Below are positions 1,250 through 22,472 of a stretch of DNA of 22,802 nt, piece by piece (position 1 is the stretch's first letter; each line of letters begins with the position of its first letter). A model generated the notes under the pieces. It did no database searches. It saw only the letters and a program-made list of their open reading frames with translations, and was not told where the DNA came from. Both the position numbers and the translations under genes were made by a program. This DNA is from Cafeteria roenbergensis (lineage: Eukaryota > Sar > Bigyra > Bicosoecida > Cafeteriaceae). The stretch is taken from contig VLTN01000129.1 in NCBI GenBank assembly GCA_008330645.1, positions 1-22,802 on the forward strand. Direction: 5' to 3'.

Positions 1250-2984
1250 TCAGGCCTTGCCCACGAGCATCCAGTTGTAGCCTGACCCGCTGGCGTGCAC
1301 GGATGCCAGCGTCGACGCGAAGGGGTGCTCCGAGTCGTCCGCCGCGGCGTCCGCGCTCTCGCCGTAGAACTCGGCGTTGGCCGCCGCCTCCTCGCGAAGG
1401 GCCTTCATGAACGACTCGAGGCTGTACGGGTCCTCGTCGGCGTCCGCAGCGCCGCCGTCCACCACGGCGGAGCGGCGCACCTTGTCGATGATGGCGTCGA
1501 GCGTCATCTCCTCAGCGGACGATGCGGTAACCGGCGATGTCTGTGAGGGAGAGAGAGAGGGAGGTATGGGGGTGAATGCGCATGGCGCAGGGGCGAGGTG
1601 GGGGGAGGCGAGCGCAGGCGGCCGGAAGGTGGATCGACGCGGGCCGACCGCGCCTTGAAGCGCTCGGCAGAAGCAGCAGCGCGCACAGCCCGGCCCGCAG
1701 ACGGACGCCGTTTTTGGCGCTGCTGGTCTGCCGCCGGGTGGCCAGGCCGCGACGGCCCTGCCTTCGGGGCCCACTGCGCGAATCGCGCGAGAGCGACGTC
1801 TCACGGTGAGGCCTGAACGGTCCCAGCTTGGCCATGATCCTCACTTCTTGAGGGCGTTGGCCCGGCCCCGCTTGACAAGAGAGACCTTCCTCGCCCGCCC
1901 AGTGGAGCAGATCCACTTGATATACGGCGGATACTTTCCGGCCGCCCAAAGCCCATGCGGCAGCAAGCCGAAGAGCACCTGGTCGTCCGCCATCCACTTT
2001 GGTCATCTCGTTTGACGCGACATGGAGCCGGCGTTGTGGGAGCTCGAGCGAGTCGGAGGCCTTGAACAGAGCCCAGTTGAACGGCCCGAGCGGCTGCTTC
2101 ACGGCCTCCAGGGCCTTGGCGCCCTCCACCGTGCCCATCTCGGCGGCCGTCTTGCGCGTGGCCGCGCGCTCCAGAGCGTCAGGCACGCCAGCGGGGCCTG
2201 CGGAGGCGATCATTGCCTCATAGTCGGCGGTGAGCTTGGAGATGGAGAAGCCGCCCATGTCGTCCACCTTGATCACCTTGCTCAGGTGCTCGATGAAGTG
2301 CTCGGGGGTGCACTCGTCGCGCTGTAGAGCTGCACCTCGGCGTGAAGAGCCCCCATGCACTCCTTCACCGCGCCCTTGAGCGTGTTCAGGCGGCCCTTGG
2401 CCACGGCGCCGGCCTTCTCGCCCTGCGACGTGCACGAAGACGAGCTTGTTCCGCTTGAAGCTCCCGGATCCGAGAGCAAAGTTGGCGAGGCCAAACTGGA
2501 CCGTCGTGTCATCCAGCTTGGTCGCCATTTCGGTCACGCCACTGCGCCGCTCAGTCGCAAAGCAGGACGTCAACCGCGTACAGGAGCACTGGTGCAAGCA
2601 TGCCGGCCGGGGATCTGCGCGCACGAGCCGCGGGCGCGCTGCTTGTCTCCCGGCGCCGATCCGCATCGGTGCAACGCTCCCTCGTCGCAAATGCGAGAGA
2701 GCGCGCCCTGGCCTCTCCTGGCCGCGCGGGTTCCCGCAACCGCGGGGCGTGCCATTGGCAGCAAGCAGGGACGGCCCCTCCGTGCGCCCGGGGCAAGCAA
2801 AAAGGACAGAGACCAGGAGGCAACAAGGGTCGGCAGCGCGGGCGGACCTTCGGCGGCTCGCTCCTTCCGCGGGCCGTGCCAACGAGAACGGGGCTCACCG
2901 GTGCCGCAACCAACGACTTTGAGCCCCTTGGGGAGGGCCTTCCCCCGCGGCCCCTGCCGAGGATGCTCCTGCTGCGGCTGCCAT
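1250..2984 (-). CDS. tandem ADF-H (coactosin-like) actin-binding protein
   Basis: Probable exons are 2984-2899, 2541-1845 and 1540-1250, separated by GTGAGC..CAG and GTGAGG..CAG introns. ADF-H domains of the coactosin type bind F-actin. Domain 1 reads LKVVGCGTG, VTEMATKLDDTTVQFGL, KRNKLVFVH, GRLNTLKGAVKECMGALHAE, then CTPEHFIEHLSKV, following the coactosin order from the central strands to the C-terminal helix. A linker leads to domain 2: FNWALFKASD, DDQVLFGLL, YIKWICSTG, KRGRANALKK, then ASSAEEMTLDAIIDKVRR in the last exon. The proposed ATG at 2984 has a good context (AGCATGG). Frame breaks sit near 2944, 2899, 2422, 2320 and 1999; each is one base in a short homopolymer. The central part of domain 2, expected between the last two exons, was not found, and an exon may be hidden in 1541-1844. 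The C-terminus ends in GYNWMLVGKA, resembling the first strand of another ADF-H domain. The family call is firm and the exon ends are less so. Confidence 0.75.
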
Positions 2985-3029
2985 GCTTGCCGGCCTGAGA
3001 GTGTGCGGTTCGGTGCAGTGTGCCGTGGG

Positions 3030-3040
3030 CCAATATTTAG
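3030..3040 (-). promoter_or_regulatory. TATA-like element upstream of the coactosin-like gene
   Basis: CTAAATATTGG on the minus strand is an AT-rich island in very GC-rich DNA, about 46 bp upstream of the proposed ATG at 2984. Position and composition suit a core promoter element; nothing else supports it. Confidence 0.25.
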
Positions 3041-3165
3041 ACTTTCGGCCAACATGGTTCGATTTGGCGGCGGCCGGAAAGCCCAGGGCTCAGCTCGTCA
3101 TTGCGCCAGGCAGAAAGCGGACCACACAGTACACCAGGCTTGGATGCGGGGCAGGGTGTCCGGTC

Positions 3166-4561
3166 TCACAGCGGCTGCGTGCTCGAGGTGGGCGCGCGAG
3201 GCGAGGCGGGGCGAATGCGAGAGTGTTGCAGGCAGCGTGGCCAGAAGCTCAGCACCGGCTGGCCAAGGCCTTGAAACTCGCTGATGCGCTTGGTCACCGC
3301 CATGAGCTTCTCGGCGGCATTGGCGGAGGCGGTGGCGTGCGCCGCACGGGCCACCTCCATTTCCCTCTGCTTGGCAGCCAGCACAGAGTCATGTGCTTCT
3401 GCTTGGCTGCCAGGGCGGCATGCATCTGCTCCTTCGTGGCCTCCAGGGACGCCTCAAGGTGCTCCACCCTGGCCCTGAGAGCTTCGGTTTCCGCCCGGTG
3501 ACTCTTGGTGAGCGTGGCAACGCTGCACCGGGCGACGAAACCGACGGAGAGTCTGCTGGGGCCAGTCCGGGAAGCCCCGACGGAGCAGTGGACCAGAGCC
3601 GGGTTGCCGTTCTGCGCCGCGCGGCCGAGAGCAGCAAGGGCGTGGTCCGATGGGCAAGTGGGAGCGCGCTGGCATGCATCAAGGCATGGACACTCATGCT
3701 GGCACGCTTGGCCAGCGCGACGCCGCACTGCGCCTCACAACGTCCCTGGCGTCCATGTCGGCGCCGTGGTTAAGCAGAACGCTTCCCACCTCGGCGTGCC
3801 CACGGCCAGCGGCCAACATGAGAGGCGACCAGCCCCTCCTGCGGAAGTCTCCGCAAGCGCGGTGCCGGCGGAGCATGAGCAATCGCAAGCGCGGTGCCGG
3901 CGGAGCATGAGCAATCGCAAGCGCGGTGCCGGCGGAGCATGAGCAATCGCAAGCGCGGTGCCGGCGGAGCATGAGCAATCGCAAGCGCGGTGCCGGCGGA
4001 GCATGAGCAATCGCAAGCGCGGTGCCGGCGGAGCATGAGCAATCGCAAGCGCGGTGCCGGCGGAGCATGAGCAATCGCAAGCGCGGTGCCGGCGGAGCAT
4101 GCGCAATCGCAAGTCGGGGTCGGCGGGCGCCGAGGCGGGACGTCCGCCCAGAGCAGAGCAGAGCGTGCCATAGCCGCAACGGGACGAACCGTGGTCTGGG
4201 CGTTGACGTTCGCCCCATGCTTGATCAGGAGCTCCGCTGCCTCGGCGTGGTTCTTCATGGAAGCGAGAATCAGCGCCGTGCTCGCATTCTGCAAGGGCGC
4301 GGGGGGGAGAGAGGGGGTGCAGACTATGAGCTGGACGCGGGTGCGCGCGGGAGTGGAAGTCGCTGGGCTCGCCATGTAACAGTTGGACGTCGTGGTCGCC
4401 CGCCCGGGGCTGACGACCATGCCACGCCTCACCTTCATTGGGCTGGTCCAGTCGACGAGAGCGCCCGCGCTCAGCAGCCGCTCAATCTCAGCCACGTCCC
4501 CGGAGGAGGCAGCAGTGAGAAGCAGCTTCCCCATGTCGTCAGCGGTCAGAGTCATTGCCAT
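3166..4561 (-). CDS. ankyrin-repeat protein with C-terminal coiled coil
   Basis: Exon 1 (4561-4433) starts MAMTLTADDMGKLLLTAASS and gives the first ankyrin helices ending LVDWTSPMK, followed by a GTGAGG donor. Exon 2 (4288-4190) is exactly 99 nt, one ankyrin repeat (NASTALILASMKNHAEAAEL...), with a GTTCGT donor. Exon 3 (3838-3739) is one further repeat (SPLMLAAGRGHAEV, then LLNHGADMDARDV) with a GTGAGG donor; it is 100 nt because of one extra G in a GGGG run (3833-3836). The last exon (about 3522-3166) encodes a heptad-rich coiled coil (RAETEALRARVEHLEASLEA, then AAKQREMEVARAAHATAS) and ends at TGA 3166-3168, with one missing base near 3390. It is probably a scaffold or adaptor. It shares its exon-1 architecture (AAxSGDxAExxRLLxxGxxxDW) with the ankyrin gene at 7514. 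The start of the coiled-coil exon is uncertain. Confidence 0.7.
3855..4112. repeat. 32-bp minisatellite, about 8 tandem copies, in an ankyrin-gene intron
   Basis: The unit GAGCATGAGCAATCGCAAGC plus 12 further bases recurs with exact 32-bp spacing. GAGCAT is found at 3871, 3903, 3935, 3967, 3999, 4031, 4063 and 4095. The copies look identical except at the right edge (GCGCAATCGC instead of GAGCAATCGC). It fills most of the intron between ankyrin exons 2 and 3 (3839-4189) of the minus-strand gene. Because 32 is not a multiple of 3, all frames through it look repetitive; it is not coding. Confidence 0.95.
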
Positions 4562-5099
4562 CGCGTCAGGTGTGCCTCCTCGGCCTGCTCTCTGCGCCAG
4601 CGAGTGGATGTCGATCGGGCTCTGCTCCAGCCGGCTGCCGGCGCCCCGCTCCTCGTGAGGCCGCCCTTCCCCGTGTTGTGGCCGCCAACCCGCTCCAGGT
4701 CCCGCCTGTGCCCATGGGCCGCAGCTGTGGCCCCGTTGGCGGGCCTCCATTCGATTTCCTCGCAACGATCCTGTCCCGATGCTTTTGCACCCCAGAGTGG
4801 ATGTCGCCAGCGGCTCTGCGCGTGCTGCGACAGCCCGCCACGGCCTCGGGCCGGGCCGCCCTCGCACCAGCGGGCTGCGCAGCCGCATGTGCACAGGGCA
4901 GAGACGGGCCAGCATGTGCCAGTGGCAGCGGCAGGGCGCTGGCAAAAGGTGAAATTGGGAGGGTCGTGTGCAAGACCTGTCCGCTTGCACGACGTGCGCA
5001 GTTCAAGTGCAGGGTGCGCGCGCCGCCTCGGCCGGCCGGCCAGCCCCTTTTTTGTGCGGATTGTTCGGGCAGGCGCGGCTGGTGAGCCAGGAAGCTGCA
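4562..5099. other. spacer upstream of the minus-strand ankyrin gene
   Basis: This holds the presumed 5' region of the ankyrin gene and probably the 3' end of the cyclin-like gene. Long open frames on both strands here have no recognisable domain and look compositional. Confidence 0.4.
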
Positions 5100-6286
5100 G
5101 GGCGGTCTTGCAAACAGTCCGGACTGAGTTGAAGAAGCCGTGTCGCGACACCCACTCGCAAGCACGAAGCCTCGTTGCGCGAGCCCCATCTTCATCGGTC
5201 AGCCCACTCTTGGCGTTCAGGCTGCCCGGAGGAGCGGCCGCACTCCTTGCCGCAGCTGCTGGCGCTGGGGCCATTGCATTTCCAGCGCCAGCGCCAGCGG
5301 CATCAGTCGCCTCGCTCTTGAGGCTCTGCTCAAACGCTGCCTCCTCCTTGAGCTCTGCTTCGTCGGCAAGCTCTGCCTGGCGCCGCTGGGCGCGGGCCTC
5401 CTCCGGCAGAGTGCCTCCGGCCATTCCCACGCCCCCGCCCCTGCCGCGCCTTCCTCAAGGGAGCAGCGGGCGGCCTTGAGCACCGCAGCGGATTCAGCCG
5501 TGTTGGGGTGGAACGCCCCCGCCCATGAGGCACCGCCGCCGTCACTGCTGCTCGCCGGCTCGCCCGCTGCTGCCACGCGCCGATGGGGAGGCCAGAGCCC
5601 CGCCATCCCGCCCCAGCGAAATAGCGGCGCACGCCGCCGCAGCCGCGGGCATGGTTTGCCGCCTCCCGCGTGCGCAAAACCGCGCGAAGCGCCACCGTGC
5701 AGTGCCGTGCCAGCTCGCCGTCCGCGCCCGCGCCTGCAGCAGCAGCGGCACGAGAGTGGAAACGGCACCTCGGGACCCTCCGGCAGGAGGAAGCCGCAGT
5801 CGCGCAGCATCCGCAGCTCGGCCTCGCGATGGCCTGCCTCATCCACGAGGCGAGCCGGCCTGCAGGCGCCAGAGGCGTCGCTGGAGCGCCGGTGCTTGCC
5901 GCTTTTGGCCGCCCACAGAGTCCCAGCGACATCGAGGTCCAACGAGGCTCGTCCGTCGCCTTGACCCAGCGCAAAAGAGACTCGCCCCGGCCACTGCAAA
6001 GGAGCACCGCGGGCAAAACGTGGCGGGGGCGAAGCAGTAAAACGAGCGCGCAGGCGCTTGGCCCCGTGCCGCACCCCCCCCGCCTTGCGCCGCGCCCCCG
6101 CACAGCACTCACTAATGTCTGGATCGAACGCGTCGAATGGGAGGTGCAAGCAAAGCGCTGAAGGATGAGCGCAGCGAGGCAGCACGTCTCGAACGGCAGC
6201 TCAAGCGACGTCCCGCACCCGAACACGAGGTCCGCCGCCGCGGCCCGGAGCTGCCGCACGCCTGCCGACTCGCCGCACGCCTCCAT
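5100..6286 (-). CDS. probable cyclin-fold protein with Ala/Glu-rich C-terminus
   Basis: Exon A (6286-6113) begins with ATG in good context (GGCATGG) and reads MEACGESAGVRQLRAAAADL, then CGTSLELPFETCCLAALILQ, RF and FDAFDPDI before a GTGAGT donor. Exon B (from about 5959 after an AAG acceptor) reads DVAGTLWAAKSGKHRR, then HREAELRMLRDCGFLLPEGP, with a possible GTGCCG donor at 5768. This pattern (A...LG..L.LP.....A..I..RF.....F..FDP, then A..LW.AAK..KHRR, then E.ELRMLR..GF) follows helices 1-5 of the first cyclin box in L/Q/T-type cyclins. Phase works between A and B if one C is added to the GGG run at 6139-6141 (minus CCC). A later exon (about 5548-5107) encodes an Ala/Glu coiled-coil-like stretch (EARAQRRQAELADEAELKEE), with another one-base break at 5432-5436. 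I could not place a second cyclin box or a definite stop. The family call is an inference from pattern. Confidence 0.45.
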
Positions 6287-7052
6287 GCCTCTGCCCGTTG
6301 GCGCCGCGCCCGCCCCCCTCCCGGCTCTCTCCCCCCGCCTTCGGCGCGTGAGTGCAAGCAGCATCGAGCTCGGTTGCTTGCCGGGAATCAAATATTTCCT
6401 CGTCCATGTGTGCCCTTGTGCGCCGCCATCTTTCGCCTTCACCCGCAGCCGCTGCGTCAGCGAGAGCAAAGGCAGGACTTGGCGCAAGGACCAGGTCTGC
6501 AGACTTGCGCCGCCTTCAGCCTCCGCCGCAGCCTCTGGCCATGTTCCCCCTGCTTGACCGAGCATACCCAGCAGCAAGCGGGGGTTGCAAAGCAGATACC
6601 AGTGCTTCATGCAGAGGAGCACTGCCTCCCCGCGCACCGTCATCCTCGCGCTCTGGAAGGTCCAAGTCGTCGTCGTTCCACGATGACAGAGGAGCGACGC
6701 CCAAAGTTGTCATTCCCGTTGCCCCGCAGCCCCCGAACGCGGGAACTCCCGAGACGGAGCTCGTCCTCGGACTTGCGCTGACCGCAATGGTCATGGACGA
6801 TCCGGTCACCGGGATCTGGACGATCATCCAGCGCGCTGCGTCGGGCCATTCGCTGGGAGGTTCGCGAAGGGTCTGCCTCCGCTCTGCCCAAACTTGGCAC
6901 GGACCGGCCCTGACCTGCAGCAGACGCCGGAGCAAACGGGCGGCTTGTCTGATTGGGAAGCGGAAGGCTAGCACGTCCTGGCGAAGCGGAAACACATCGC
7001 TGCAGGGAAGCGCCCGACCCCACCCGGCGAGTGTAGAAAACGCACCGACGCA
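6287..7052. other. unresolved region between the cyclin-like gene and the inverted repeat
   Basis: It holds the presumed promoter of the cyclin-like gene. Several frames stay open. Around 6640-6830 the minus strand gives Ser-rich sequence (MTIAVSASPRTSSVSG) and the plus strand a hydrophobic stretch (LVLGLALTAMVM). I cannot tell which, if either, is an exon. Confidence 0.3.
6388..6397 (-). promoter_or_regulatory. AT-rich TATA-like element upstream of the cyclin-like gene
   Basis: AAATATTTGA on the minus strand lies about 105 bp upstream of the ATG at 6286. It is one of very few AT-rich islands in the window and shares the AATATT core with the element at 3030-3040. Confidence 0.2.
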
Positions 7053-7435
7053 ATGTTTGTGATGTAAATCTGTTTGTGGTGTCAATCTTGTGCTGTCCCT
7101 TCGAGCTGACCGGCCGCCTCTCTCAGACACCGATACATCCCCTGGCCCGCTCTGCCTCGCGGCAAGCGCGGGCCATCCGACCCGCTCACAAGCTCGCCCT
7201 CTGGGCGGGCACACCGGTTCGAGCCCGCGTGGGGCTCACCGGCCGCACCCGCACCCGTACCCGCCGCACGCGCGCGCCCCGAGTGGTGTGTGTCTGCTCG
7301 ATTCGATCGCGTGACCCCTCCCTCCCGTCCCTCGGGCGACCCCGTCTGGTCCCCGCCGCGCCGAACTTTAGCCACTTAGGTCAACACCAGTCCTTCACCA
7401 GCAAGCGGCCTCTCAACGTCCACAAAGGTCAGCAG
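7053..7435 (+). repeat. left arm of long inverted repeat, 5' region of the ankyrin gene
   Basis: This 383-bp segment is repeated in reverse complement at 12054-12416 with about 90% identity by eye. Shared landmarks in both arms are CCCTTCGAGCTGACCGGCCG, CACACCGGTTCGAGCCCGCG, GCTCGATTCGATCGCGTGAC and CCTCTCAACGTCCA. The outer edge of the left arm has a 17-bp imperfect tandem duplication (7054-7070 and 7071-7087) that the right arm lacks. It ends 78 bp before the ankyrin ATG, so it most likely contains the promoter and 5' UTR. Confidence 0.9.
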
Positions 7436-7513
7436 TGTGGGTGTCGGGCTCTGCAGCGACTTGGTCCACAGCTCCAAACCAGCGCTCGCCCGCCACCCCG
7501 CACATCAGAAAGC

Positions 7514-10500
7514 ATGGCCACCCCTGCTATGGATGACAATGCAATGGCGAGCGCGCTCTGGCAGTCGGCGAAGGCCGGGAACACCGCCGAGGCCAGCAGG
7601 CTGCTCGATGAGGGCACGCCGCTAGACTGGCAAAAACGCTGCAGACGTGAGCTCTGAGACTGTAGGCACGCTCCTCACTTGTTGCCGAGGAAATGGGGCC
7701 AGAAACAACGAGGCCGGTGTCTCTGTCCCGCCAATGGGGCTGCTGCACCGAGGATCGCGCGGCAAGATGTGCAGGCCTTCGACCGTGATGGCTATGGCGG
7801 CAGAGTCATTGCGTGCTGGTTGGCTCTGGGTGGCTTGCGGGAGGTGGCATCAGCGGCATTGTGTGGGGGTCATGGTTGTTGAGAGCACGTGGCCTCGCAG
7901 GATGGTGCTACGGCGCTTGCTGTGGCTGCGTCCGGTGGGCACAAGGACACGGTGGAGCTGCTGCTGGACCGGGGTGCCGACATGGAAGCCAAGGATGAGG
8001 TGAGTGCGGCGGCCGTGTGTTTACTGCGCGACGGGCCGCGCCGGGCGTCACGGGCGTTTGGGGGGGTGGCGATGGCGATCGCACGTCGGGGTGTCATGCT
8101 CCTGTCGCGGGCCGGCGTGCGAGGCGCTGGCGGAGGTGGGAACGTCGGGAGGGGAGCGATGGTACGACGCGGTGCGGTGACATGCGGGTCTGCGGCGTCG
8201 CAGGAAGGCGCTACGGTACTTGTTCGGGCGGCATTCGGTGGGCACAAGGACACAGTCGAACTGCTGCTGGACCGGGGTGCCGACATGGAGGCCAAGGCGC
8301 GCGTGAGTGCGGCGGGCGTATGTTGCACCGCGAAGGGCCGCGCCGGGCGTCACGGGCGGGCCGGAGGTGCGGCGATGGCGATGATGCGTCGGGGCGTCGT
8401 GCACCGGTCGCGGTCCGGCGTGTGAGGCGGCGCTGGCGGGGGGTGAGAACGTCGGTAGGGGAGCGATGGTGCGACGCGGTGCGGTGACATGCGGGCCCGC
8501 GGCGTCGCAGAATGGTGCTTCGGCCCTGATGGTGGCGGCATTCGGTGGCCACAAGGACACGGTGGAGCTGCTGCTGGACCGAGGCGCCGACCTGGAGGCC
8601 AAGGATGAGGTGAGTGCGGCGGCCGTGTGTTTGCTGCGCGACGGGCCGCGCCGGGCGTCACGGGCGGGCGGGGGGAAAAGGCATGGCGGTGACGCGTCGG
8701 GGCGTCTTGCTCCTGTCGCGGGCCGGCGTGTGAGGCGGTGCTGGCAGGGGGAGCATGTTGGGAGAGAGCAACGGTGCGACGCGGTGCGGTGACATGCGGG
8801 CCTGCGGCGTCGCAGAATGGTGCTACGACCCTGAAGGTGGCGGCATTCTGTGGCCACAAGGACACGGTGGAGCTGCCTGCTGGACCGAGGCGCCGACCTG
8901 GTGGCCAAGGATGAGGTGAGTGCGGCGGCCGAGTGTTGCATCGCGAAGGGCCGCGCGGGGCGTCACGGGCGGGCCGGAGGTGCGGCGATGGCGATGATGC
9001 GTCGGGGCGTCGTGCACCTGTCGCGGTCCGGCGTGCGAGGCGGTGCTGGCAGGGGGAGCATGTTGGGAGGAGAGCAACGGTGCGACGCGGTGCGGTGACA
9101 TGCGGGCCCTGCGGCGTCGCAGAATGGTGCTACGACCCTGATGGTGGCGGCATTCGGTGGCCACAAGGACACGGTGGAGCTGCTGCTGGACCGAGGCGCC
9201 GACCTGGAGGCCAAGGACCGCGTAGGGGCTTTGAACAGTGTCACACTGCGCGACGGCCAGCGGCGGGCGTCACGAACGGGCCGTGGACCGTGATGGCGTC
9301 GAGGCGTCGGGGCGCCGTGCTCATTCCGCGTGCCGGTGTGGGAGGCCATGCTGGAGGGGCTGTCCGGAAGGCAGCGACGGTACGTCGATGTGCGGTGTGG
9401 AACGAGCGCGCGTTGTCGCAGAATGGCGTTACTGCGCTTGTTGTGGCTGCATCGTTGGCCTGCAAGGACACGGTGGAGCTGCTGCTGGACCGAGGCGCCG
9501 ACCTGGAGGCCAAGGACCGCGTAGGGGCTTTGAACAGTGTCACACTGCGCGACGGCCAGCGGCGGGCGTCACGAACGGGCCGTGGACCGTGATGGCGTCG
9601 AGGCGTCGGGGCGCCGTGCTCATTCCGCGTGCCGGTGTGGAAGGCCATGCTGGAGGGCTGTCCGGAAGGCAGCGACGGTACGTCGATGTGCGGTGTGGAA
9701 CGAGCGTGCGTTGTCGCAGGAGGGCGCAACTGCGCTGGTTTGGGCTGCCCGACGAGGCCGTAAGGACACGGTGGAGCTGCTGCTGGACCGAGGCGCCGAC
9801 CTGGAGGCCAAGGACCGCGTAGGGGCTTTGAACAGTGTCACACTGCGCGACGGCCAGCGGCGGGCGTCACGAACGGGCCGTGGACCGTGATGGCGTCGAG
9901 GCGTCGGGGCGCCGTGCTCATTCCGCGTGCCGGTGTGGGAGGCCATGCTGGAGGGGCTGTCCGGAAGGCAGCGACGGTACGTCGATGTGCGGTGTGGTAC
10001 GAGCGTGCGTTGTCGCAGGAGGGCGCAACTGCGCTAGTTTGGGCTGCCCGGCGAGGCCGCAAGGACACGGTGGAGCTGCTGCTGGACCGAGGCGCCGACC
10101 TGGAGGCCAAGGGCCGCGTAGGGGCTTTGAACAGTGTCACACTGCGCGACGGCCAGCGGCGGGCGTCACGAACGGGCCGTGGACCGTGATGGCGTCGAGG
10201 CGTCGGGGCGCCGTGCTCATTCCGCGTGCCGGTGTGGAAGGCCAAGCTGGAGGGGCTGTGCGGAAGGCAGCGACGGTACATCGATGTGCGGTGTGGTACG
10301 AGCGTGCGTTGTCGCAGTATGACGCTACGGCGCTAGTTTGGGCTGCCCGGGGAGGCCGCAAGGACACGGTGGAGCTGCTGCTGGACCGAGGCGCCGACCT
10401 GGAGGCCAAGGACCGCGTAGGAGCTTTGAACAGTGTCACACTGCGCGACGGCCAGCGGCGGGCGTCACGAACGGGCCGTGGACCGTGATGGCGTCGAGGC

Positions 10501-11750
10501 GTCGGGGCGCCGTGCTCATTCCGCGTGCCGGTGTGGGAGGCCATGCTGGAGGGGCTGTCCGGAAGGCAGCGACGGTACGTCGATGTGCGGTGTGGAACGA
10601 GCGCGCGTTGTCGCAGGAGGGCGCAACTGCGCTAGTTGGGGTTGCATACGGTGGCCGCAAGGACACGGTGGAGCTGCTGCTGGACCGAGGCGCCGACCTG
10701 GAGGCCAAGGACCGCGTAGGAGCTTTGAACAGTGTCACACTGCGCGACGGCCAGCGGCGGGTGTCACGAACGGGCCGTGGACCGTGATGGCGTCGAGGCG
10801 TCGGGGCGCCGTGCTCATTCCGCGTGCCGGTGTGGAAGGCCAAGCTGGAGGGGCTGTGCGGAAGGCAGCGACGGTACATCGATGTGCGGTGTGGTACGAG
10901 CGTGCGTTGTCGCAGTATGACGCTACGGCGCTAGTTTGGGCTGCCCGGGGAGGCCGCAAGGACACGGTGGAGCTGCTGCTGGACCGAGGCGCCGACCTGG
11001 AGGCCAAGGACCGCGTAGGAGCTTTGAACAGTGTCACACTGCGCGACGGCCAGCGGCGGGCGTCACGAACGGGCCGTGGACCGTGATGGCGTCGAGGCGT
11101 CGGGGCGCCGTGCTCATTCCGCGTGCCGGTGTGGGAGGCCATGCTGGAGGGGCTGTCCGGAAGGCAGCGACGGTACGTCGATGTGCGGTGTGGAACGAGC
11201 GTGCGTTGTCGCAGGAGGGCGCAACTGCGCTGGTTTGGGGTGGACACGGTGGAGCTGCTGCCGCAAGGATGCCAAGGACCGCGTGCTTTGAGTGTCACAC
11301 TGCGTGCGTGGACCGTGATGGCGTCGAGGCGTCGGGGCGCCGTGCTCATTCCGCGTGCCGCCATGCTGGAGGGGCTGTGTACATCCAAGTACGACGCGTA
11401 TGACGCTACGGCGCTGGGCTTGACACGGTGGAGCTGGACCGAGGCGCCGACCTCGTAGGAGCACAGTGTGCGCGACGGCCAGCGGCGGGCGTCACGAACG
11501 GGCCGTGGACCGTGATGGCGTCGAGGCGTCGGGGCGCCGTGCTCATTCCGCGTGCCGGTGTGGAGGCCATGCTGGAGGGGCTGTCCGGAAGGCAGCGACG
11601 GTACGTCGATGTGCGGTGTGGTACGAGCGTGCGTTGTCGCAGGAGGGCGCAACTGCGCTGGTTGGGGCTGCATCCCGTGGCCACAAGGACACGGTGGAGC
11701 TGCTGCTGGACCGAGGCGCCGACCTGGAGGCCAAGAACCGGGTGAGCTGA
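7514..11750 (+). CDS. ankyrin-repeat protein encoded by tandem one-repeat exons
   Basis: Exon 1 (7514-7646) starts at an ATG in good context and reads MATPAMDDNAMASALWQSAK, then AEASRLLDEGTPLDW, with a GTGAGC donor at 7647. Twelve repeat exons follow: 7901-7999, 8204-8302, 8511-8609, 8816-8915, 9123-9221, 9422-9520, 9720-9818, 10019-10117, 10318-10416, 10617-10715, 10916-11014 and, after two degenerate units, 11643-11741. Each is 99 nt except 8816-8915 (100 nt, extra C at 8876-8877), phase 0 at both ends, and encodes one 33-residue ankyrin repeat (EGATALVWAARGGRKDTVEL, then LLDRGADLEAKDR). Acceptors are TCGCAG. Exon 1 ends one base out of phase because of an A5 run at 7632-7636. After 11741 a GTGAGC donor is followed at once in frame by TGA (11748-11750); any further exon is not identified. 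The product is probably a protein-binding scaffold of about 440 residues with no visible other domain. Confidence 0.8.
7901..11741 (+). repeat. tandem exon-intron array of the ankyrin gene (about 299-bp unit)
   Basis: Each unit is a 99-nt ankyrin exon plus an intron. Proximal introns (8000-8203, 8303-8510, 8610-8815, 8916-9122) are 204-208 nt and start GTGAGTGCGG. Distal introns from 9222 are 199-200 nt and start GTAGGGGC or GTAGGAGC, with donor starts at 9222, 9521, 9819, 10118, 10417, 10716 and 11015 (298-299 bp apart). Introns match between copies as well as exons do, which indicates recent tandem duplication or conversion of whole units. Confidence 0.95.
11215..11475 (+). pseudogene. two scrambled, shortened ankyrin units inside the array
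   Basis: The exon beginning at 11215 starts normally (GAGGGCGCAACTGCGCTGGT) but then loses and reorders short blocks. GGACACGGTGGAGCTGCTG precedes CCGCAAGGA, and the following intron lacks several short segments. The next exon, after GTATGACGCTACGGCGCT, is reduced to ACACGGTGGAGCTGGACC plus CGAGGCGCCGACCT. Neither copy encodes an intact 33-residue repeat or keeps phase. A perfect unit resumes by about 11480. This is either decayed copies or a consensus artefact of repeat assembly. Confidence 0.75.
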
Positions 11751-12416: not shown

Positions 12417-12829
12417 GCCGGCCGTCGGCCGCACAACTTGGACTGATATTTCCGCGCAACGCCTCGAGCGCAGCGTGAGAGATCGCAGTCGCGCGCCCCG
12501 AAGCGGCCCGGGTGGGTCGGGGCTGGGCTCGGCCGCCGAGCGCACGTGGGCTCGCGAACCGGGTGCATGGGCCGCTCGACGCTGCCCGGCCGGGCGGGCG
12601 TGGCGTGGCGTGTGCGCAACCCGCGAAGCGCGGGCGATTTGGGCCGATCCGGCGAATGCGCAAGGCTGCGGCTTTGCTGGCTCGACCATGGCACGCGCAG
12701 CGAGGTCGGCGAGCGCGATCGCAATGGCACAGACCCAACGCATGCGCAGCGCCGCTGCCATCGTCGCCATGCTGCCGAAGCAGCAGCCCGCAAGCCGCAT
12801 GGCCACCGCTGCGGGTCGCGCGTGGCCGG
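12417..12829. other. intergenic region without a recognised gene
   Basis: GC-rich spacer between the right inverted-repeat arm and the stop of the Ser/Thr/Pro-stalk segment. It has open frames on both strands and no identifiable domain. Confidence 0.4.
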
Positions 12830-13303: not shown

Positions 13304-13397
13304 GAGCGGATGCGTGTTCGCGAGGGGCGGGAGAGGAGGCAAGCCTGCTGCGACGTGCCCCACGACCCGACGCTGCGCCGTCCGCTCAGTCTTGCAG

Positions 13398-15152
13398 TCA
13401 GCACGTCACGAAGTCACGGAGACCCTCCGTTCGCGGCACCGCGGCCGTCGGCAGAGCGATGGGCAAGTCGGAGCCCGGGACGGTCGTCCCGAAGACCCGC
13501 TGCATCTCCCGCTCCGTGACCGCGCGGAAGCGGTCGAGCTTGGTGGCGCCGCCCGTGTCCGGCAACGCGGCCAGCGCCTCGCCCGTGAGGTCCCCGACGC
13601 CACCCAGGAAGCCCAGCACCGTGGAGGACTTGCTGTCCCACGTGGCCACGGGAGCGATCTCTGTGCCGTTCACGTTGCAGGCTGCAGTGGACCCCAGCGG
13701 CCCTTGCATGGCCGTCGCGGCCAGAGTGTGGACGTACCACACCGCGGCCTCCCTAGGCGCCACGAGGGCCATGGCCATTGCCCCGTAGGGCGTGACCACG
13801 TCGCGGCGCTGGATGGGCTGCGAGGCCAGTGCGGCAATGCCCGCGGCGCTAATGTACCCGGGAATCACGGGCGGAAGCAGGTCGGAGGGCGGCACCGCAG
13901 CGACGTCCGTGACGCTTGCAAACAGGCCGGGGACGCGGCGCGCCGCCGAGTCGGCGGCCCTGGCCACCTCGCACGCACGCAAAACCTTGGCCGACGTTGG
14001 AACCAGCGAGGCGTCGGTGTACGGCAGGTAGAGCCCCTTCATCTGCTCGTGGGCCGAAAACCAAAAGCCGCGCTGCACCGAGACGGTGTCCGGGGCAGCA
14101 GCGCCCTGGGCGGCCAGCTGGCTCGGCATGCGGTAGGGCACGGCCGCCAGCTGGGGGCGCTTGGCCAGCCACAGGTCCTCGCGCTCCGCTGCGTCCAGGC
14201 CGGTCAGCAGGTCCAGCACCCAGGTGAAGAGCTCGCCCTCGTACGGGTCGTCCAGCCGCCCCGAGCCCGAGACGGGGGACTGTCCGGGCGGCAGGCTCAC
14301 GTTGGCGATGGTCGTGACGGCAAATACTGCGCCGCGGGACTCGGCGCCGCCCCAGAAGAGCGTGCGCGCGGTGGCTGCCATCGCTGACCACACCGCCTCG
14401 AGCCGCGCCGCCAGCGACTCTGCCTCTGTTGCCGCCGATTCAAAGCCAGGCGCCTCGGAAGCAGCGCCCGCGAGGCGCCTTGCTGCCTGGCCGGCGGCCA
14501 CGACACCCCAGAACAGCTCTCCGTTGTCCAGGGCGGGGACGCGGTTTTCCCACCCCTGCAGCAGCCCCATGGAGCCGCTGTTGTTGGCCGGCACGCTGAA
14601 CCAAGGCAGGTACCCACCGAACCCGGGGAAGCTGGAGTTGAAGCGAGCGAACGAGTCCAGCTTCGCGCCAAGCGTGGCCACCCAGTACCCGGCGGCCTGG
14701 GCGGTCCGGCGCCTGCTTCCGCTCGACGGCCACCCGCACAGGGCCCGCAGCAGTTCCTTCGCGCCAGTTGCAGCCCCGGGGTCTGACGCCGCCGAGGCTC
14801 GTGGCCTTCCGCCCAGCGCCTCGGCGGCGTCAGCAATGCACCGCGCCGCCAAGGCTAGGTGGAAGCCCTCCTTGGAGGCCGCGGAAAAGTCGTGGAGCTG
14901 CGCTGCGGTTCCTGTGGTGTAGTTGAGCACGGCACCATCGCGGGTGACGCCGAGCCCGGACGACACGCCGACCCCACGAACGAAGGGCGCCTCGAACTCT
15001 CCAACCAAGCCGAACACGCGGCCAAGCTCTGGGCTTCCGGGGTCGAGCAGCGCGCTGGCGTTCACGGCCGGTGCCCACCTGCAAGTGCTCCAGGCTGCCG
15101 TGGCCGACGCAGCGGCGCAGGCGAGCCCAGCCAGCGCGTGCTTCAAGCCCAT
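13398..15152 (-). CDS. secreted (alpha/alpha)6-barrel glycoside-hydrolase-like protein
   Basis: An uninterrupted 584-residue frame with ATG at 15152 and TGA at 13398-13400. Residues 1-20 form a signal peptide (MGLKHALAGLACAAASATAA). The body carries KEGFHLALAARC (94-105), GYWVATLGAKLDSFARFNSS (155-174), FPGFGGYLPWFSVP (175-188), WENRVPALDNGELFWGVVAA (201-220), later DDPYEGELFTWVLDLLTG, RGFWFSAHEQMKGLYLPY, DVVTPYGAMAMALVAPREAA and ATWDSKSSTVLGFLGG. The pattern of a Trp/Asp/Glu-rich core, then a GELF motif, then VxPYxxxxAL resembles the glycoamylase-like and beta-1,2-glucanase families (GH144/GH162 type). I have not identified catalytic acids by homology. It is one of the few genes here without frame breaks or introns. 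The segment at 12830-13303 may be its stalk and membrane anchor. The CDS call is strong; the family and substrate are tentative. Confidence 0.75.
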   Translation of the reverse strand: MGLKHALAGLACAAASATAAWSTCRWAPAVNASALLDPGSPELGRVFGLVGEFEAPFVRGVGVSSGLGVTRDGAVLNYTTGTAAQLHDFSAASKEGFHLALAARCIADAAEALGGRPRASAASDPGAATGAKELLRALCGWPSSGSRRRTAQAAGYWVATLGAKLDSFARFNSSFPGFGGYLPWFSVPANNSGSMGLLQGWENRVPALDNGELFWGVVAAGQAARRLAGAASEAPGFESAATEAESLAARLEAVWSAMAATARTLFWGGAESRGAVFAVTTIANVSLPPGQSPVSGSGRLDDPYEGELFTWVLDLLTGLDAAEREDLWLAKRPQLAAVPYRMPSQLAAQGAAAPDTVSVQRGFWFSAHEQMKGLYLPYTDASLVPTSAKVLRACEVARAADSAARRVPGLFASVTDVAAVPPSDLLPPVIPGYISAAGIAALASQPIQRRDVVTPYGAMAMALVAPREAAVWYVHTLAATAMQGPLGSTAACNVNGTEIAPVATWDSKSSTVLGFLGGVGDLTGEALAALPDTGGATKLDRFRAVTEREMQRVFGTTVPGSDLPIALPTAAVPRTEGLRDFVTC

Positions 15153-15517
15153 ACCGGGGCACGCCTGGGCCCTGCCGCCAGTCCGAGTGGCGCGCGCGTG
15201 CGTGTGCTCTGGCGACGCGCAAGCTTGGCTCGCCCTGAGGCAGCGATGCATGCGGCGTTGCGACGGCCGGGCTCTGCAGGCCACACTCACGGCCGTCTGC
15301 CCCGAAAAAGGGAACGCAACCAGCTACCCAGCACGTGGGCGTGCGTATGTCCGGGTGTGCCGCCCGCCTGGGGGCTGGGCGGAGCGGCAAACGCGCCTTG
15401 ACGGCGCTTTCCTAGCGCTGCCCGTGCCACGGCCTGTGGTCGGGCCTCGCATGGCCAGGCGGCGGCCCGCGCACCCCTGGCGGCGGCGGGCGCTGCCCGT
15501 AGCCCCTGTGCCCCTGC
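15153..15517. other. intergenic, upstream of the glycoside-hydrolase-like gene
   Basis: It should contain the promoter of the minus-strand hydrolase-like gene and the 3' UTR of the next gene. No AT-rich core element or coding exon is evident. Confidence 0.4.
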
Positions 15518-16690
15518 TCACCCGGCGGAGGGCCCCTGAATCCCGGCCCGCCGCCACCCCTCGCGTCGCCGGCCCAGCGTGCCCCCCCGGCGGCAGCGCG
15601 TGCCCTCGGTCGTCCCAATGTGCCGCCGGGTCGTCTGGGCGGCCAGGCGCCGTGCCCCGTGGGTGGTCGCTGCCTGCCCTCCCGGCTGGCCCCGCAGCCC
15701 CGTGGTCGCCTGCGAACCTGCCACGCTGATCCCCGCCCCCGCCAGGGTGCCCGCCGTCGCCATGCTGGGGGGCAGGCTGTGAGCCTGTGGCGGGAAGACG
15801 CCATGCCCGTTGCTGGCCGCGGGCGGGACGGCAGCCCTTCCCGTGCCCATGCGCGAGCCAGCGGCATCGGCGGCCAGCCCCCGCACTGCCGACGGCGGGT
15901 GCTGATGCGGCCGCCCGTCGCGGTCAAGCGGGCCTGAAGCTCCGTAGTATCGGCTCCGCGCGCCTCGATCGGTGGGAAGAGGAGCAGCATGGCCGCTGGG
16001 GGCGGCCCCGCGGACGGGCTGGCGAAACGGTGCCCTCAGACCCTCTGCTGCTGCGGCTGCGGCTGCGGCTGCCGCTTGCGGCGGGAAGCTGTGGTGCCCT
16101 GGGTGGTGGTGGTGGTGGTGCCCTGGGTGGTGGTGGTGGTGCCCCGGGTGGTGGTGGTGCCCCGGGTGGTGGTGGTGTTGCTGCTGCTGCACCTGGAACG
16201 GCTGGCCCGGCCCACGTGCGTCCTCCGGGGACGGCTCCCGCTGCCGCGGCGGGGCCGAGATGCCCCACCAGCGCAGCGTCGGGCCGTCGGGCGCTTCCCT
16301 GCCCCTGTGGTAGCCGATGACGGGGTGCGCCCCGGACTCGCTCTCCTGCTTGGTGCAGGGGAGCAGGCTGGTGCTGGCCAGGCGGGGGGCAGGGTCACTG
16401 TCCCACACGCCCCAGTTGGGCAGGAGCATGTGCAGCGGCGGCGTCGTGGCCTCGCCCAGCGACGACGCGAACGCGGCGGCGCCCGGATCGGCGCTCTGGA
16501 CCGCGCGCGTGATTCGCGTCGCGGCTTTGGACACCCACGCCCGCATCTCGTCGGATTCCCAGCGCACGGCGGCGGCTTCGGGGCCGAGGCGGATCTCATC
16601 CTCGCTCACTGGCGGCTGGCCGGGGCTGTCTGCAGTCTGGGCCGACGGGCTTGCAGCAACGTCCTCGGGCCTTGGGCGCTTCTGCGAGTG
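15518..16690 (-). CDS. His/Gln/Pro-rich low-complexity protein of unknown function
   Basis: A frame open to about 16729 without an in-frame ATG at its start. A CACTCGCAG acceptor near 16690 suggests that an upstream exon carries the start. The N-terminal part is ordinary protein (DEIRLGPEAAAVRWESDEMR, AWVSKAATRITRAVQSADPG, PPLHMLLPNWGVWDSDPAPR, TLRWWGISAPPRQREPSPED). Then come QVQQQQ, histidine runs split by PG (HHHHPGHHHHPGHHHHHPG...), a poly-Ala block (AAAAAAAAAAEG) and a basic Gly/Pro/Arg-rich tail to the stop at 15518. I recognise no domain. Poly-His in nuclear-type low-complexity proteins can drive speckle targeting or metal binding, but this is only a possibility. No frame breaks are seen. 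Confidence 0.6.
   Translation of the reverse strand, partial: HSQKRPRPEDVAASPSAQTADSPGQPPVSEDEIRLGPEAAAVRWESDEMRAWVSKAATRITRAVQSADPGAAAFASSLGEATTPPLHMLLPNWGVWDSDPAPRLASTSLLPCTKQESESGAHPVIGYHRGREAPDGPTLRWWGISAPPRQREPSPEDARGPGQPFQVQQQQHHHHPGHHHHPGHHHHHPGHHHHHHPGHHSFPPQAAAAAAAAAAEGLRAPFRQPVRGAAPSGHAAPLPTDRGARSRYYGASGPLDRDGRPHQHPPSAVRGLAADAAGSRMGTGRAAVPPAASNGHGVFPPQAHSLPPSMATAGTLAGAGISVAGSQATTGLRGQPGGQAATTHGARRLAAQTTRRHIGTTEGTRCRRGGTLGRRREGWRRAGIQGPSAG
16091..16190 (-). repeat. (CAC)n-CCCGGG imperfect repeat coding for (His)n-Pro-Gly
   Basis: Runs of four to six CAC/CAC-like codons separated by CCC/CCGGG (Pro-Gly) on the minus strand, next to a CAG run. It has the structure of a coding minisatellite with growing His blocks. 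Confidence 0.85.
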
Positions 16691-16729
16691 TTCGGCAGGA
16701 ATCGGAGCATCACCAGGGCGTGCCCTCAA

Positions 16730-17102
16730 CCGTCCGTCGCGTCAGAATGACCTCTCGGGGCGCAAGCGGTGCGGCTCGCAGAGCGGGGGAGGGGGGAGCG
16801 TGCGGGCACGGGCCTTGGCTGGCAGCCTCGGTCGCCGGGCTTACCTGGGCCCGCGGGGCAAACGGGTCCATCGCCGCGCGTCGCCCTTGCGGTGGGGCAG
16901 GCCGTGCGATCGGGTCACCAGGTCCGCAGCGCCCTCGCAACGCCGGGTTGCAGCAAGTGGGCCACAAAGCTTGCGGGGAGCGTGCAGAGCAGCCACTTGC
17001 CCGACCTGCGCAGTCAGCCGCCCAGGCCTCGAGCACTCGCTCGCGACTCGCGCCTGAGCTGCAAGGCGTCCGCTTGCTGCTCCCGGAGGAGAGCCGGACG
17101 CG
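16730..17102. other. divergent intergenic region
   Basis: It lies between the His-rich gene (minus) and the SGNH-like gene (plus), so it may act as a two-way promoter. It may also contain the first exon of the His-rich gene, which I could not place. No clear core element is seen. Confidence 0.4.
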
Positions 17103-18243
17103 ATGCTGGAGCCAATTTGGTACTTGCTCACGTGGCTGGCCGTGACGCTGCGGCTGTACATCGGCGTGCCCTGGCTGTACCTGAACAAGTGGCTGGCAGC
17201 CCCGCTCCGCATCATCAACCACAAGCCAATGCACCGCATCGCAGTGATTGGTGACGGCTTCGCGGAGGGCGTCGGGGACTGGACGACGGTGATGGTCAAG
17301 TCTGGGCTGGCACACCACCTGGACAAGGCCATCGAGGCCCGTGGCGCTGCGCGCCACCCCTGGGTCGTCGACTCCTTTGGCCAGTGGCAGTCAACCTCGC
17401 GAGACTGGAGGCCCGACGCAGCCACCGGCGCGTCGAGCTGGCGCTCGCTGTCCTGCGCGCGCACCAACGCCGCTGCTGCGCGCTGCGCTGCAGTCCGAAG
17501 CCTACTCCCAGGCCTGCGCAGTCGTGCTATTGCTCGGATCCCTGGACGGGGGCTCGGTGAGCAGCGCCGCCCAGCCCCCGCGTGGCCGGCTCTTCTGCGG
17601 CACCCCGGGCGCGCGCCCGCAACCACGACCGGGCCAGTCGCAAGGTCTCCCGTTGCCACTGCCCGCCCCCCTGCGCCCCCATCCTCTCTGGCTCGCAGCG
17701 CATCCCGCATCATCCCGTCCAGAGCGGCGAGAACGTGTCCCTGGTGGCCCGCGCCCTGTCCAGCGGCACCCTGAGCATCGACGCGGCTCCCGGCCAGCTC
17801 CGCGCTCGGACGCCCTCCAAGGGAGACGACGCTGCGCTGCGCATCCCTGCGCGCCCGTGTTTGTGGTGGGGCTCCCTGGCAACTCCCCCCAGGCGGAGGA
17901 GCGCAACGAGGCCATCCGCGAAGAGCTCGAGGCGCTCGACGCCTCAGCGCCCATCGTCTTCGTCGACTACCCGGAGCTCACGGCTTCCGACGTGTGCTTC
18001 GACGGCATGCACCCCTCGTCGGGAGGCTACTCGGGGCTGGCGGCCGTGCTTGCCTCGGAGCTGGAGCCCGTGATGATGAGCGTGGAGGTGTCCATGGCCG
18101 CCGCGCCGCCCCGAGAAGCGCGGGCCCGCTCTCGACTCCGCCGCGGCTGCCACCGTGGTGACGAAGCGCATCAAGAGCAAGGGTGTCGTCTTCGGCGGAC
18201 GAGGGCCGGGACGCCATTGCTGTGGCGCTGGGATCCAGGCTGA
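17103..18243 (+). CDS. SGNH/GDSL-hydrolase-like protein with N-terminal membrane anchor
   Basis: ATG at 17103. Residues 4-30 are hydrophobic (LEPIWYLLTWLAVTLRLYIG), a signal anchor. Then RIAVIGDGFAEGVGDW aligns with SGNH block I, where the catalytic Ser of GDS is replaced by Gly (residue 52, 17256-17258). HPWVVDSFGQWQSTSRDW matches block II. A further exon ending at 17556 with a GTGAGC donor gives CAVVLLLGSLDGGS (block III, GSLDG for GxND). After a CAG acceptor at 17698 comes GENVSLVARALSS. The last part reads FVVGLPGNSPQAEERNEAIR, then PIVFVDYPELTASDVCFDGM and HPSSGGYSGLA, with the block V Asp and His (DxxH) at 18001-18012. Junctions around 17431-17494 and 17800-17860 do not keep phase and were not solved. 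A CCCC run (18109-18112) is one base too long; corrected, the tail reads DSAAAATVVTKRIKSKGVVF. It may be a hydrolase variant or a non-catalytic member. Confidence 0.65.
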
Positions 18244-18893
18244 GGCGCAGGGGCGACCACGGCAAGCAGTGCTCGGCGCTGATGCGTCGGGGCTCCCGCC
18301 TGTGCGGGAAGCAGTGAGGATGCTGGCGCCTGGAGCACGGCTGTGAGGCTGCCGCCGCGTCCTTCGCCCGCAAAGGGTGTGTGCGTTGGGTATGGCGGGC
18401 CAGGTGAGGCCGCCCGCGCAGCCGCGTCTGGCTGGTCCGCAATGTCGGGCGAGAACCCAGGCCGCGCTGGAAGCAGCGAGCGTGTGCAAAGGCGTGTGAG
18501 AAGTGGCGTGCAGGGTTAGCGGACGGCGGACGCGAGATTGGAAAGTCCGGCAGTGCCACGGGGAGCAACACACGCGCAAAGACACGCGCGGCTGCGGTCA
18601 CCGAATGAACACGAAACTGGGGGCCGATTGCGCCCTCCAGTTCCTGCCGGTGGTGCGCGCGCTGGGCGGCGCGCCGCGAAGTGACCGCTTCGGGAAAGAG
18701 AAGGGGTCACGGCTCGCGGCACAGCCTCCCGCGCGCAAAGCGCCTCAATCGGGCGTCCGGGGCAAGACCTGCTGTCGCGTCGAAGGGAGCTCTCCGGGCT
18801 CGCCAAGGGGGCGAGGGTGCGAAGTGCTTTGCCTTCAACGCGACCAGCGCTCGCTGCTCGTCGCTTGAATGGGGGAGTAATTGCTCCTCATAT
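18244..18893. other. convergent intergenic region
   Basis: 3' regions of the SGNH-like gene and the tripeptidyl-peptidase gene meet here. The true stop of the SGNH-like gene may fall here because of the frame break at 18109-18112. No other gene is recognised. Confidence 0.4.
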
Positions 18894-21210
18894 TCAGAGG
18901 TTGAGCACCTTAGCCATGCCGGCGGCAAGCTTGGGGAAGTTGGGGGTGCCGAGGCCGGTGGTGGCGTCCCAGCCCTTGGTGGCCTTGAAGCCGGTGGTGC
19001 AGTCGCAGCTGGACTCGGTGCAGAAGTTGTCACCCTGGGTCACATCGTTGAAGGCGGAGTTGTCAGCCTCGTAGATCTTGTAGAGCAGCGGGGCGACGTG
19101 GCCGAGCTTGCCGCCCTTCTTGGCCGCGAGGAGGCCGAGCACGCCGGAGAACACGGGGGCGGAGCACGAGGTGCCGTCCACAGCCATGGCCTCGCCGTTG
19201 AGCTGGATGTAGTAGGCATGGCCGAGGGCGGCCACGTCGGGGTAGCCACGGCCAGTGGCGTTGAAATCGCCCGCGGCGGGCACGCCGGAGCCGCTGATGT
19301 AGGCGGACACCTGGCTGGACTGGTACGACGGGGTGGAGGCCACGTTGGAGAAGCCGCCGCCGGACACGATGAGGGCGCCGGTCTTGGTGGAGCACACGAT
19401 CTCGTCACCGCCCATCTTGCAGGTGTTGGACTTGCAGAAGGGGGAGCTGCCGCCGGTCTTGATGGAGGCGGCCGAGAACTGGGTGGCGCCGACAGCCAGC
19501 ACGTTGGGGGAGGCGGCGGGGTAGGCGGGGGAGGTGACGGGGTTCTGGCACATGGGGTCGGTGCGGCCGTGGGCGCCGGAGTCACCGGAGGAGGCAGCGA
19601 GGGTGATGCCGTTGAGGCCGACCTTGGCGAACTCGGAGTTGACGCGGGTCACGAAAGCCTTGGAGCCGGCAACACCGCCGCCAGCGCAGGGGGGTGCGCT
19701 CGGGGAGATCTGGCACTGGTCCTCCTCGTCCCAGCCGTAGGACATGGAGATGATGTCGGGGGTGCCGCTCTCGCCGGCGTTCATGAGGTCCTGGGCGAAC
19801 TCGAACATCCAGCCCTGCTCGGTCCAGTACCAGTTGGTGTTGCCGCCGCCGACAGCGCCGAGGTACTGCACGTCGAGGGTGGACTCCGGCTGCGGCTCGT
19901 TGCCGTTGAAGGGGCCGATCTTCTTGGCGATGGAGAAGGTGGGGATAGCGGTCTGCTGGATGAAGGTGGTCAGGTCGTCCTGGGCGTACGCGGGGTAGCC
20001 CTGGAACTCAGCGGCGGGCCTGGGGTGATGGAGCTGGAGCCCTTGGCGCCCTGAAGGTTGTAGGTGCTCACGAGGGTCTCGGGCACGGTGAACTGCTCGC
20101 CGGCGCCGACCTTGCGGGCGCGGCCGAGGTGCTCGGCGGGGAAGCCCTGGAGGCCGGACACGAAGTCGATCTTGCCCTCCATGGAGGCGGGGAAGGTGTA
20201 CGAGCCGTCGAGCTGGTGCACGAGGTCGCCGGACTTCTTGTGCTGGTAGGTGTGCATGCGAGCGCTCAGCATCTTCTCCACGGCGCCGACGGAGCCGCGG
20301 CACTTGATGGAGTCGCTTGCGGGCGGAGCAAGAGTGCCCGTGGCTCTGGAGCCTGCGAGCAAAGGGGAAGGCGACCGGGAGGCGTTGCGCACAGTCGAGG
20401 CGGGCTCTAGCACTTGCAGGCGGGGCGCGCTTCGCCGGCAGCAGCGAAACGCCTGGTTCCCGTTCGCCCAACTCACCAGGTGAGCACCTCGTTCTTCATC
20501 CAGCCCGGGGTGGCGGTCATCTCGTTGATCTCGGCCTTGGTCATGAACATGCCGTACTTGGAGCTGCGGGGTGGGGAAGGGGGGGAAGGGGGGGGGGGGG
20601 CGGTGCGGAAGCGATGGGTATGGGAAATCGCGCAGGTGAAGCGGTTGGCGACGGTGACAGGCGCTGCGGGTTCAACTTGGCCACCGTCTCGGCTGGCTGC
20701 AATCGTTCCCCAAGATCGCTCACCTGCCGGGTTGGACACGGCGTCGAAGGCACTGCGGGGGACAGGAAGGGCGACGAGGCGAGCAGGGCACGGCAAGGCT
20801 TGGGTGAGCGGGGCGGGGCGGGGCGCAGGTGCGCGCGGCCGGCGCTTCGGGGCAGGGCAGCCCCTCAGCGCCCGCAGAACAACGGCGCGATCTTTGGAAG
20901 CGCCAGTCCCCGCGGCGCGCGCACGTCCCCAGGCGAGAGCTTGCGCCCGGGCGCCTGTGCGGCGCTACCTGCTCGGCCGCGCACTCGACACTGCCGATTG
21001 CGGGGCGCCGGCGGGCGGGCTGGGTCGCTCGGGCAGGGGGGCTCGGCCGTCAAGCGAAAGCTCTCACGCCTGGAGGCCCTCGGCGTTGGAGATGGGGTGG
21101 CCACGGTGAAGTCGATGGTCTCGAACTTGGGCGCACGGGACACCTTCTCCCACATAGGGGAGGCGGTGGCCGCCGCAAGGGCAGCGAGGGGCAGCGACGA
21201 TGCGCAGCAT
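18894..21210 (-). CDS. tripeptidyl-peptidase I / sedolisin (S53) serine peptidase
   Basis: Secreted or lysosomal serine-carboxyl peptidase that removes tripeptides from N-termini at acid pH. Exons: 21210-21068 (signal peptide MLRIVAA...LAALAAATASP, then MWEKVSRAPKFETIDFTVA), a 29-nt exon 20752-20724 (AFDAVSNP), 20563-20477 (SKYGMFMTKAEINEMTATPG, WMKNEVLT) and 20315-18894. The first three and the start of the fourth form the activation prodomain (SVGAVEKMLSARMHTYQHKK, GSYTFPASMEGKIDFVSGLQ). Catalytic residues: Glu (19884-19886) and Asp (19872-19874) in PESTLDVQYL, oxyanion Asp (19581-19583) in SSGDSG, nucleophile Ser (19167-19169) in DGTSCSAPVFSG. The C-terminal calcium-site region DVTQGDNFC and GWDATTGLGTPNFPKL are present. 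Donors are GTGAGA, GTGAGC and GTGAGT. Homopolymers at 21188-21191 (one long), 21094-21097, 20729-20731 and 20022-20025 (one short each) break the frame; the last 1.1 kb is intact. Confidence 0.93.
20564..20605 (-). promoter_or_regulatory. strong polypyrimidine tract and CAG acceptor of the peptidase gene
   Basis: On the minus strand a run of C with a few T (including a C12-type run) leads to CCCCGCAG and exon 3 of the peptidase. It is the clearest splice acceptor tract in the window. Confidence 0.7.

Positions 21211-22441: not shown

Positions 22442-22472
<31 letters not shown>

Follow-up and report, generated by a model that had tools for sequence, protein, structure and literature searches.

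Broken reading frames on a short contig of Cafeteria roenbergensis as probable assembly errors in a redundant copy of an intact locus

Contig VLTN01000129.1 of the Cafeteria roenbergensis assembly GCA_008330645.1 (here C129) carries several unrelated genes whose reading frames are broken by single bases, and the question it raises is whether these genes have decayed, are restored after transcription or have been misread. The window analysed is the entire contig, 22,802 bases with a GC content of 0.700, and eukaryotic-type spliced genes are readable in its sequence; the assembly comprises 167 contigs with a total of 36,303,456 bases. A preliminary description of this DNA listed 16 break sites, most of them at short runs of one base, and attributed them to run-length errors in an unpolished long-read assembly. 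That consensus errors of long-read assemblies break genes is already well known from accounts such as the Kastor paper (PMC12007338), in which residual insertion and deletion (indel) errors fragment genes through frameshifts and make intact genes resemble pseudogenes. We conclude, from a comparison of sequences, that C129 is almost certainly a redundant, error-rich copy of positions 266066-288968 of a larger contig of the same assembly, C10, and that its frame breaks would be assembly errors, the real genes being intact.

The contig and its counterpart

C10 is a 731-kb contig, and C129 is collinear with C10:266066-288968 at both ends and in the inner pieces compared. The start of C129 is identical to the sequence at C10:266066 in 232 of 234 columns, and in a blastn alignment positions 13818-22802 match C10:280001-288968 at 99.44% over 8,999 columns, with 5 mismatches and 41 gap openings. 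Where the two were compared, which amounts to about 14 kb of the 22.8 kb with a piece of the ankyrin array aligning poorly, C129 is a near-identical collinear copy of the larger contig from end to end. The C10 stretch was found with a 3-kb query; genome-search queries of 10-12 kb had missed it in the matches listed.

The differences between the two contigs were counted after aligning four segments globally (1923-4135, 5534-6434, 7738-9138 and 13818-22802; 13,534 columns), the first three of which were picked for containing sites from the preliminary description. There are 60 insertions and 32 deletions, or 92 indels (6.8 per kb), and only 4 substitutions; under blastn scoring the same four segments give 85 gap openings and 12 mismatches. 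Single-base events, which make up 86 of the 92 indels, dominate over substitutions. When runs are measured in the longer version, 75 of these 86 alter a run of at least two bases, against a null expectation of 46-50%; with the threshold raised to three bases the count is 49, where the null is 16-20%. The indels are unevenly spread. They crowd into four intervals, at about 1.9-3.3 kb, 5.5-6.1 kb, 17.4-18.3 kb and 20.0-22.7 kb, and are sparse at 7.7-9.1 kb and 13.8-17.4 kb, with none at 18,738-20,015. Differences occur in introns and intergenic DNA too, and in the segment aligned to the sampled C10 stretch L022 coding sequence holds 18 indels in 4,834 bases and non-coding sequence 25 in 4,134 (p = 0.13, no significant difference), which is consistent with indels that are independent of coding status, although a modest difference remains compatible with these counts.

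The frame breaks themselves are present in the C129 sequence, where genes are split over frames, and at 13 of the 16 sites listed in the preliminary description C129 and C10 differ by one base in, or immediately beside, the bases named: 1998, 2317/2318, 2942, 3389, 3833, 6141, the A-run 7632-7636, 8876, 18109, 20022, 20728/20729, 21093/21094 and 21188. Given the density of indels quoted above, 13 matches to 16 short targets lie far above chance. The site at 2421-2423 is off by three bases from a difference aligned at 2426, and the other two fall at no difference, those nearest to 2898-2899 lying at 2865 and 2942 and that nearest to 5432-5436 at about 5413. The claim that the breaks lie mostly at short runs is borne out by the run counts, although some of the 13 matching sites, such as 6141, are not genuine run-length changes. 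The compensating pairs that had been described also exist, with opposite signs at 21188 and 21093 and at 2317 and 2426, for example, and are to be expected because the errors are dense. Many differences were absent from the original list; for example, the SGNH-like gene also differs at 17466, 17853 and 18194, the peptidase gene at 20016 and the coactosin-like gene at 2345/2348.

The affected genes

The features concerned, in C129 coordinates, are:

1844..2528, minus strand: coactosin-like (ADF-H) gene, split across two frames in C129
3271..4288, minus strand: ankyrin/coiled-coil gene, with frame breaks near 3389 and 3833 and C10 differences at both
6117..6262, minus strand: part of the gene described as 'cyclin-like', with a frame break and a C10 difference at 6141
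7513..11750, plus strand: ankyrin gene, an array of 99-base exons with one ANK repeat each, with frame breaks at 7632-7636 and 8876
11237..11476, no strand assigned: garbled stretch within the array, affecting exon and intron alike
17103..18317, plus strand: SGNH/GDSL-like gene with several frame breaks
18894..21210, minus strand: sedolisin-type peptidase gene, with C10 differences at 20016, 20022, 20317, 20728, 21093 and 21188

The coactosin-like gene shows most directly what the breaks do to a recognisable family. Against Cofilin_ADF (PF00241), with a cut-off of 22.4 bits, the best C129 frame scores 14.8 bits and the best single piece 12.3, whereas the C10 frame (213 amino acids, open through the end of the fetched stretch) reaches 51.3 bits (E 1.2e-13). 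The C10 differences in this gene comprise a dense cluster at 1932-2038 and positions 2317, 2345, 2348 and 2426. Two coactosin strings, one from the middle and one C-terminal, have no letter-for-letter match in C10; the middle string differs there by one residue and the C-terminal string falls within the cluster at 1932-2038.

The two adjoining coiled-coil strings of the minus-strand ankyrin gene are likewise in two frames in C129 and in one frame in C10, and Ank repeat matches were found at 3742-3834 and within the frame 3770-5002. A tandem repeat of about 32 bases per unit lies at about 3850-4130, within an apparent intron of this gene as judged by eye. The two parts of the 'cyclin-like' gene, in two frames in C129, form a continuous single frame in C10; its frame break stands, 6141 differing from C10, but the family name is unconfirmed, with no Pfam match in the C129 frames and pieces searched.

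In the plus-strand ankyrin gene, one-base differences from C10 lie in the A-run at 7632-7636 and at 8876. The first is a longer A-run in comparison with C10 and resembles an extra base before the A-run in comparison with seven other family members. Measured from acceptor to donor, 11 of the 12 array exons found are 99 bases long and the exon holding 8876 is 100; eight further loci of the ankyrin family share the one-exon-per-repeat design, with 71 of their 72 exons found being 99 bases. At 7902-11750 the introns are near-identical in part of the array, with a unit of 298 bases. The garbled stretch shows 17 deletions of 3-29 bases relative to the consensus of this unit, the alignment of 11214-11650 to the consensus having 11 mismatches overall, and the C10 piece 277301-277900 spans it with large gaps. 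Deletions of this size are unlike the one-base errors elsewhere in C129.

The SGNH-like gene has nine indels relative to C10 between 17466 and 18194, introns included, and the gene finder described below makes 4 calls in its C129 version and 0 in the C10 copy; for its identity there is only a sub-threshold Lipase_GDSL match, 13.2 bits, in a C129 frame. In the peptidase gene the difference at 20317 was not counted as a coding break because it lies at a splice acceptor of the gene model. Exon 3 has 0 substitutions in 1,410 columns between C129 and the copy at C10:286k (9 columns near gaps were skipped), the differences being extra bases, and the C10 frame matches Peptidase_S8 at 32.0 bits and Pro-kuma_activ at 32.5 bits. 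The breaks are also visible against a 91% paralog at C10:173k, a comparison by which decay and error are not separable; the codon-position differences from that paralog (46/26/72 at positions 1/2/3) are superseded by the near-identical C10 copy. Several peptidase matches lie on C10, at 173k, 177k, 185k and 286k, two of them neighbouring genes with the same structure.

The surroundings of the ankyrin exon array have features of their own. An inverted-repeat pair of about 350 bases (7071-7434 and 12053-12400) flanks it, copies of which are found on some 13 other contigs at about 78-91% identity. Many genes of the same ankyrin family are near contig ends, and the family may be subtelomeric, with its own flanking element. 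The sequence at 12460-13271 is part of a multi-copy family, of which C62 and C74 carry many copies and C42, C44, C84 and other contigs some.

Frame shifts elsewhere in the assembly

Using a gene finder with explicit frame-shift moves, with final training on contigs above 150 kb only, a starting model seeded with the C10 peptidase genes and a background taken partly from the C129 window, we obtained 9 shift calls in C129 at penalty 8, over 8,928 coding bases. Six of the nine (2320, 2428, 3391, 18106, 20024 and 21096) are at or within 5 bases of a previously listed site. At the same penalty, no shift was called in the 72,691 coding bases of twelve 10-kb stretches sampled from contigs above 150 kb, among them the L022 stretch carrying the C10 copy. 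Contigs of 30-150 kb, sampled in five stretches (two of them AT-rich and poor in coding sequence), gave 4 in 15,030, and those below 30 kb, also sampled in five stretches (one poor in coding sequence), gave 16 in 22,371. For the large contigs, the 30-150 kb contigs, those below 30 kb and C129, respectively, the calls numbered 3, 4, 23 and 9 at penalty 7, 0, 3, 14 and 8 at penalty 9, and 0, 2, 12 and 4 at penalty 10. The final finder called no frame shift in the C10 copy. When the large-contig stretches were divided in halves for held-out training (penalty 8), all 12 held-out stretches remained at 0 calls and C129 gave 9 each time.

Random single-base indels were planted in the large-contig stretches at 1, 2 and 4 per kb, which put 75, 139 and 293 of them, respectively, into coding sequence, and the finder made 48, 72 and 107 calls. 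These are totals, tallied without matching of sites; since the calls are fewer than the planted indels, the finder undercounts. With an earlier, noisier version, whose training set was the full 20 sampled stretches, calls in those stretches fell from 18 at penalty 8 to 13, 7 and 0 at penalties 10, 12 and 14, and calls in C129 fell from 12 to 5, 1 and 0.

A second short contig behaves like C129. Over 1,005 aligned columns C130 differs from C19 by 5 gap openings and no mismatch, a 3-kb C130 piece being placed on C19 at 97%. In the sequences compared, redundancy with errors is thus demonstrated for these two contigs, C129 and C130, but for none of the other short ones.

Three observations on other contigs may be added. 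One of the 9 ankyrin exons of C88 (88 kb, stretch L041) is 98 bases long, and the A-run of its exon 1 is one base shorter than in its relatives; C88 may carry errors too. While the genome has about 70% GC, the sampled stretches of C100 (L031) and C115 (L045) have GC contents of only 0.333 and 0.380, and are possibly organelle or foreign DNA. Among the kinase-domain matches listed, none is on a contig numbered above C97, as might be expected if short contigs held few unique genes, though this proves nothing. A search for chlorophyll-binding proteins gave no match.

Weighing the explanations

The reading of the breaks as run-length errors holds because the C10 copy is intact, the differences are dominated by indels, most of these change runs, and the rates in coding and non-coding DNA do not differ significantly. 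Poorly corrected reads of a locus that is also held correctly at C10 would have given rise to the redundant contig, and one-base insertions and deletions, mostly miscounted short runs, would have been left in its consensus and broken the frames. We infer that C129 was built from single long reads or from long reads at low coverage. The assembly as a whole appears not to be that error-prone, its errors being seemingly concentrated in the redundant short contig, and it is here that the preliminary description needs to be narrowed: the cause it proposed is supported, but as a property of redundant short contigs rather than of the unpolished assembly at large, the sampled large contigs being free of shifts at penalty 8.

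It could be argued that C129 is a real second copy, either a recent segmental duplicate or the other haplotype, whose genes have decayed to pseudogenes; it is a separate contig, it carries a few substitutions under either scoring, and its ankyrin array is laid out differently. In the usual course of divergence, however, substitutions outnumber indels, and here indels exceed them 92 to 4 (85 to 12 with blastn scoring), so that substitutions have not accumulated alongside the indels, there being none at all in the 1,410 columns of peptidase exon 3. Moreover, coding DNA shows no significant deficit of indels, most of which change the length of a run by one base, and we regard such a decayed copy as very unlikely. 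A physical extra copy whose mutations are nearly all one-base indels in short runs, for example one that is silenced or extrachromosomal and lacks indel repair, is less likely still, and we give it about half that small credence. Genuine run lengths, with proteins restored by widespread insertional or deletional RNA editing or by tolerated frameshifting, would account for several unrelated genes being hit together, but nothing in the data needs it: the same assembly carries the locus with intact frames, introns and intergenic DNA are affected as well, the frame breaks are not genome-wide (the twelve large-contig stretches being without a call at penalty 8), and only five of the kinase-domain matches listed have an internal stop. 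The preliminary description had said that such an alternative would be remarkable, and we would set its chance at next to nothing. It is the excess of indels over substitutions, together with the intact C10 copy, that led us to reject both pseudogene decay and RNA editing. That C10 was over-corrected and C129 is the true sequence has nothing in its favour beyond the existence of two versions; the C10 frames agree with separate paralogs, namely the tandem peptidases at C10:173k and 177k and the ankyrin exons at eight loci, and coactosin exceeds the family cut-off in the C10 version only. We consider this just as vanishingly improbable as editing.

Several points weigh against an error-rich redundant copy and should be set beside it. 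The argument is drawn from assembly sequences, and about 7.9 kb of C129 (235-1828, 4136-5404, 6435-7556, 9139-10987 and 11717-13817) lies outside the comparison with C10. The ratio of indels to substitutions varies with alignment scoring, and four extra aligned pieces, covering listed sites and the array, stand outside the main counts and contribute a few mismatches; inspection by eye gives five gaps and two mismatches for 1829-1931, one gap and one mismatch for 5405-5543, and one gap for 7557-7757. Two of the 16 listed sites are without a C10 difference, the layout of the repeat array differs between the contigs, which is why the array piece aligns poorly, and one of the 18 calls of the earlier finder falls inside the C10 copy (L022:2372). 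Nor do all short contigs conform. C125 differs from C128 by 45 mismatches and 8 gap openings and is thus substitution-rich, the best match of a C120 piece elsewhere is at 85%, and the ankyrin exons on the short contigs C136 and C155 are intact in 14 of 14 cases. The C125 piece matches C47, C118, C128, C151 and C159 at 97-99%, and on these alignments the C125-related short contigs look like real repeats. The frame-shift calls on C125 and C120 are therefore not proven errors, as these contigs differ mainly by substitution or are without a close copy.

With these points considered, the frame breaks of C129 are an artefact and not a real biological feature, and the diagnosis in the preliminary description is correct. 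As in the cases that the Kastor paper describes (PMC12007338), residual consensus errors make intact genes look pseudogenic; those cases concern small genomes judged against outside references, whereas here the errors on a short contig are revealed by an intact second copy within the assembly. C129 is like the leftover redundant contigs of long-read assemblies in that a short contig duplicates part of a long one. It is unlike the leftovers of a diverged haplotype, having few substitutions and many indels, and so resembles an error-rich copy of the same sequence. A cheap check is to seek a second copy in the same assembly and to count indels against substitutions. For the gene content of this organism, gene prediction on C129, and at least on C130, would give false pseudogenes and false duplicate genes.

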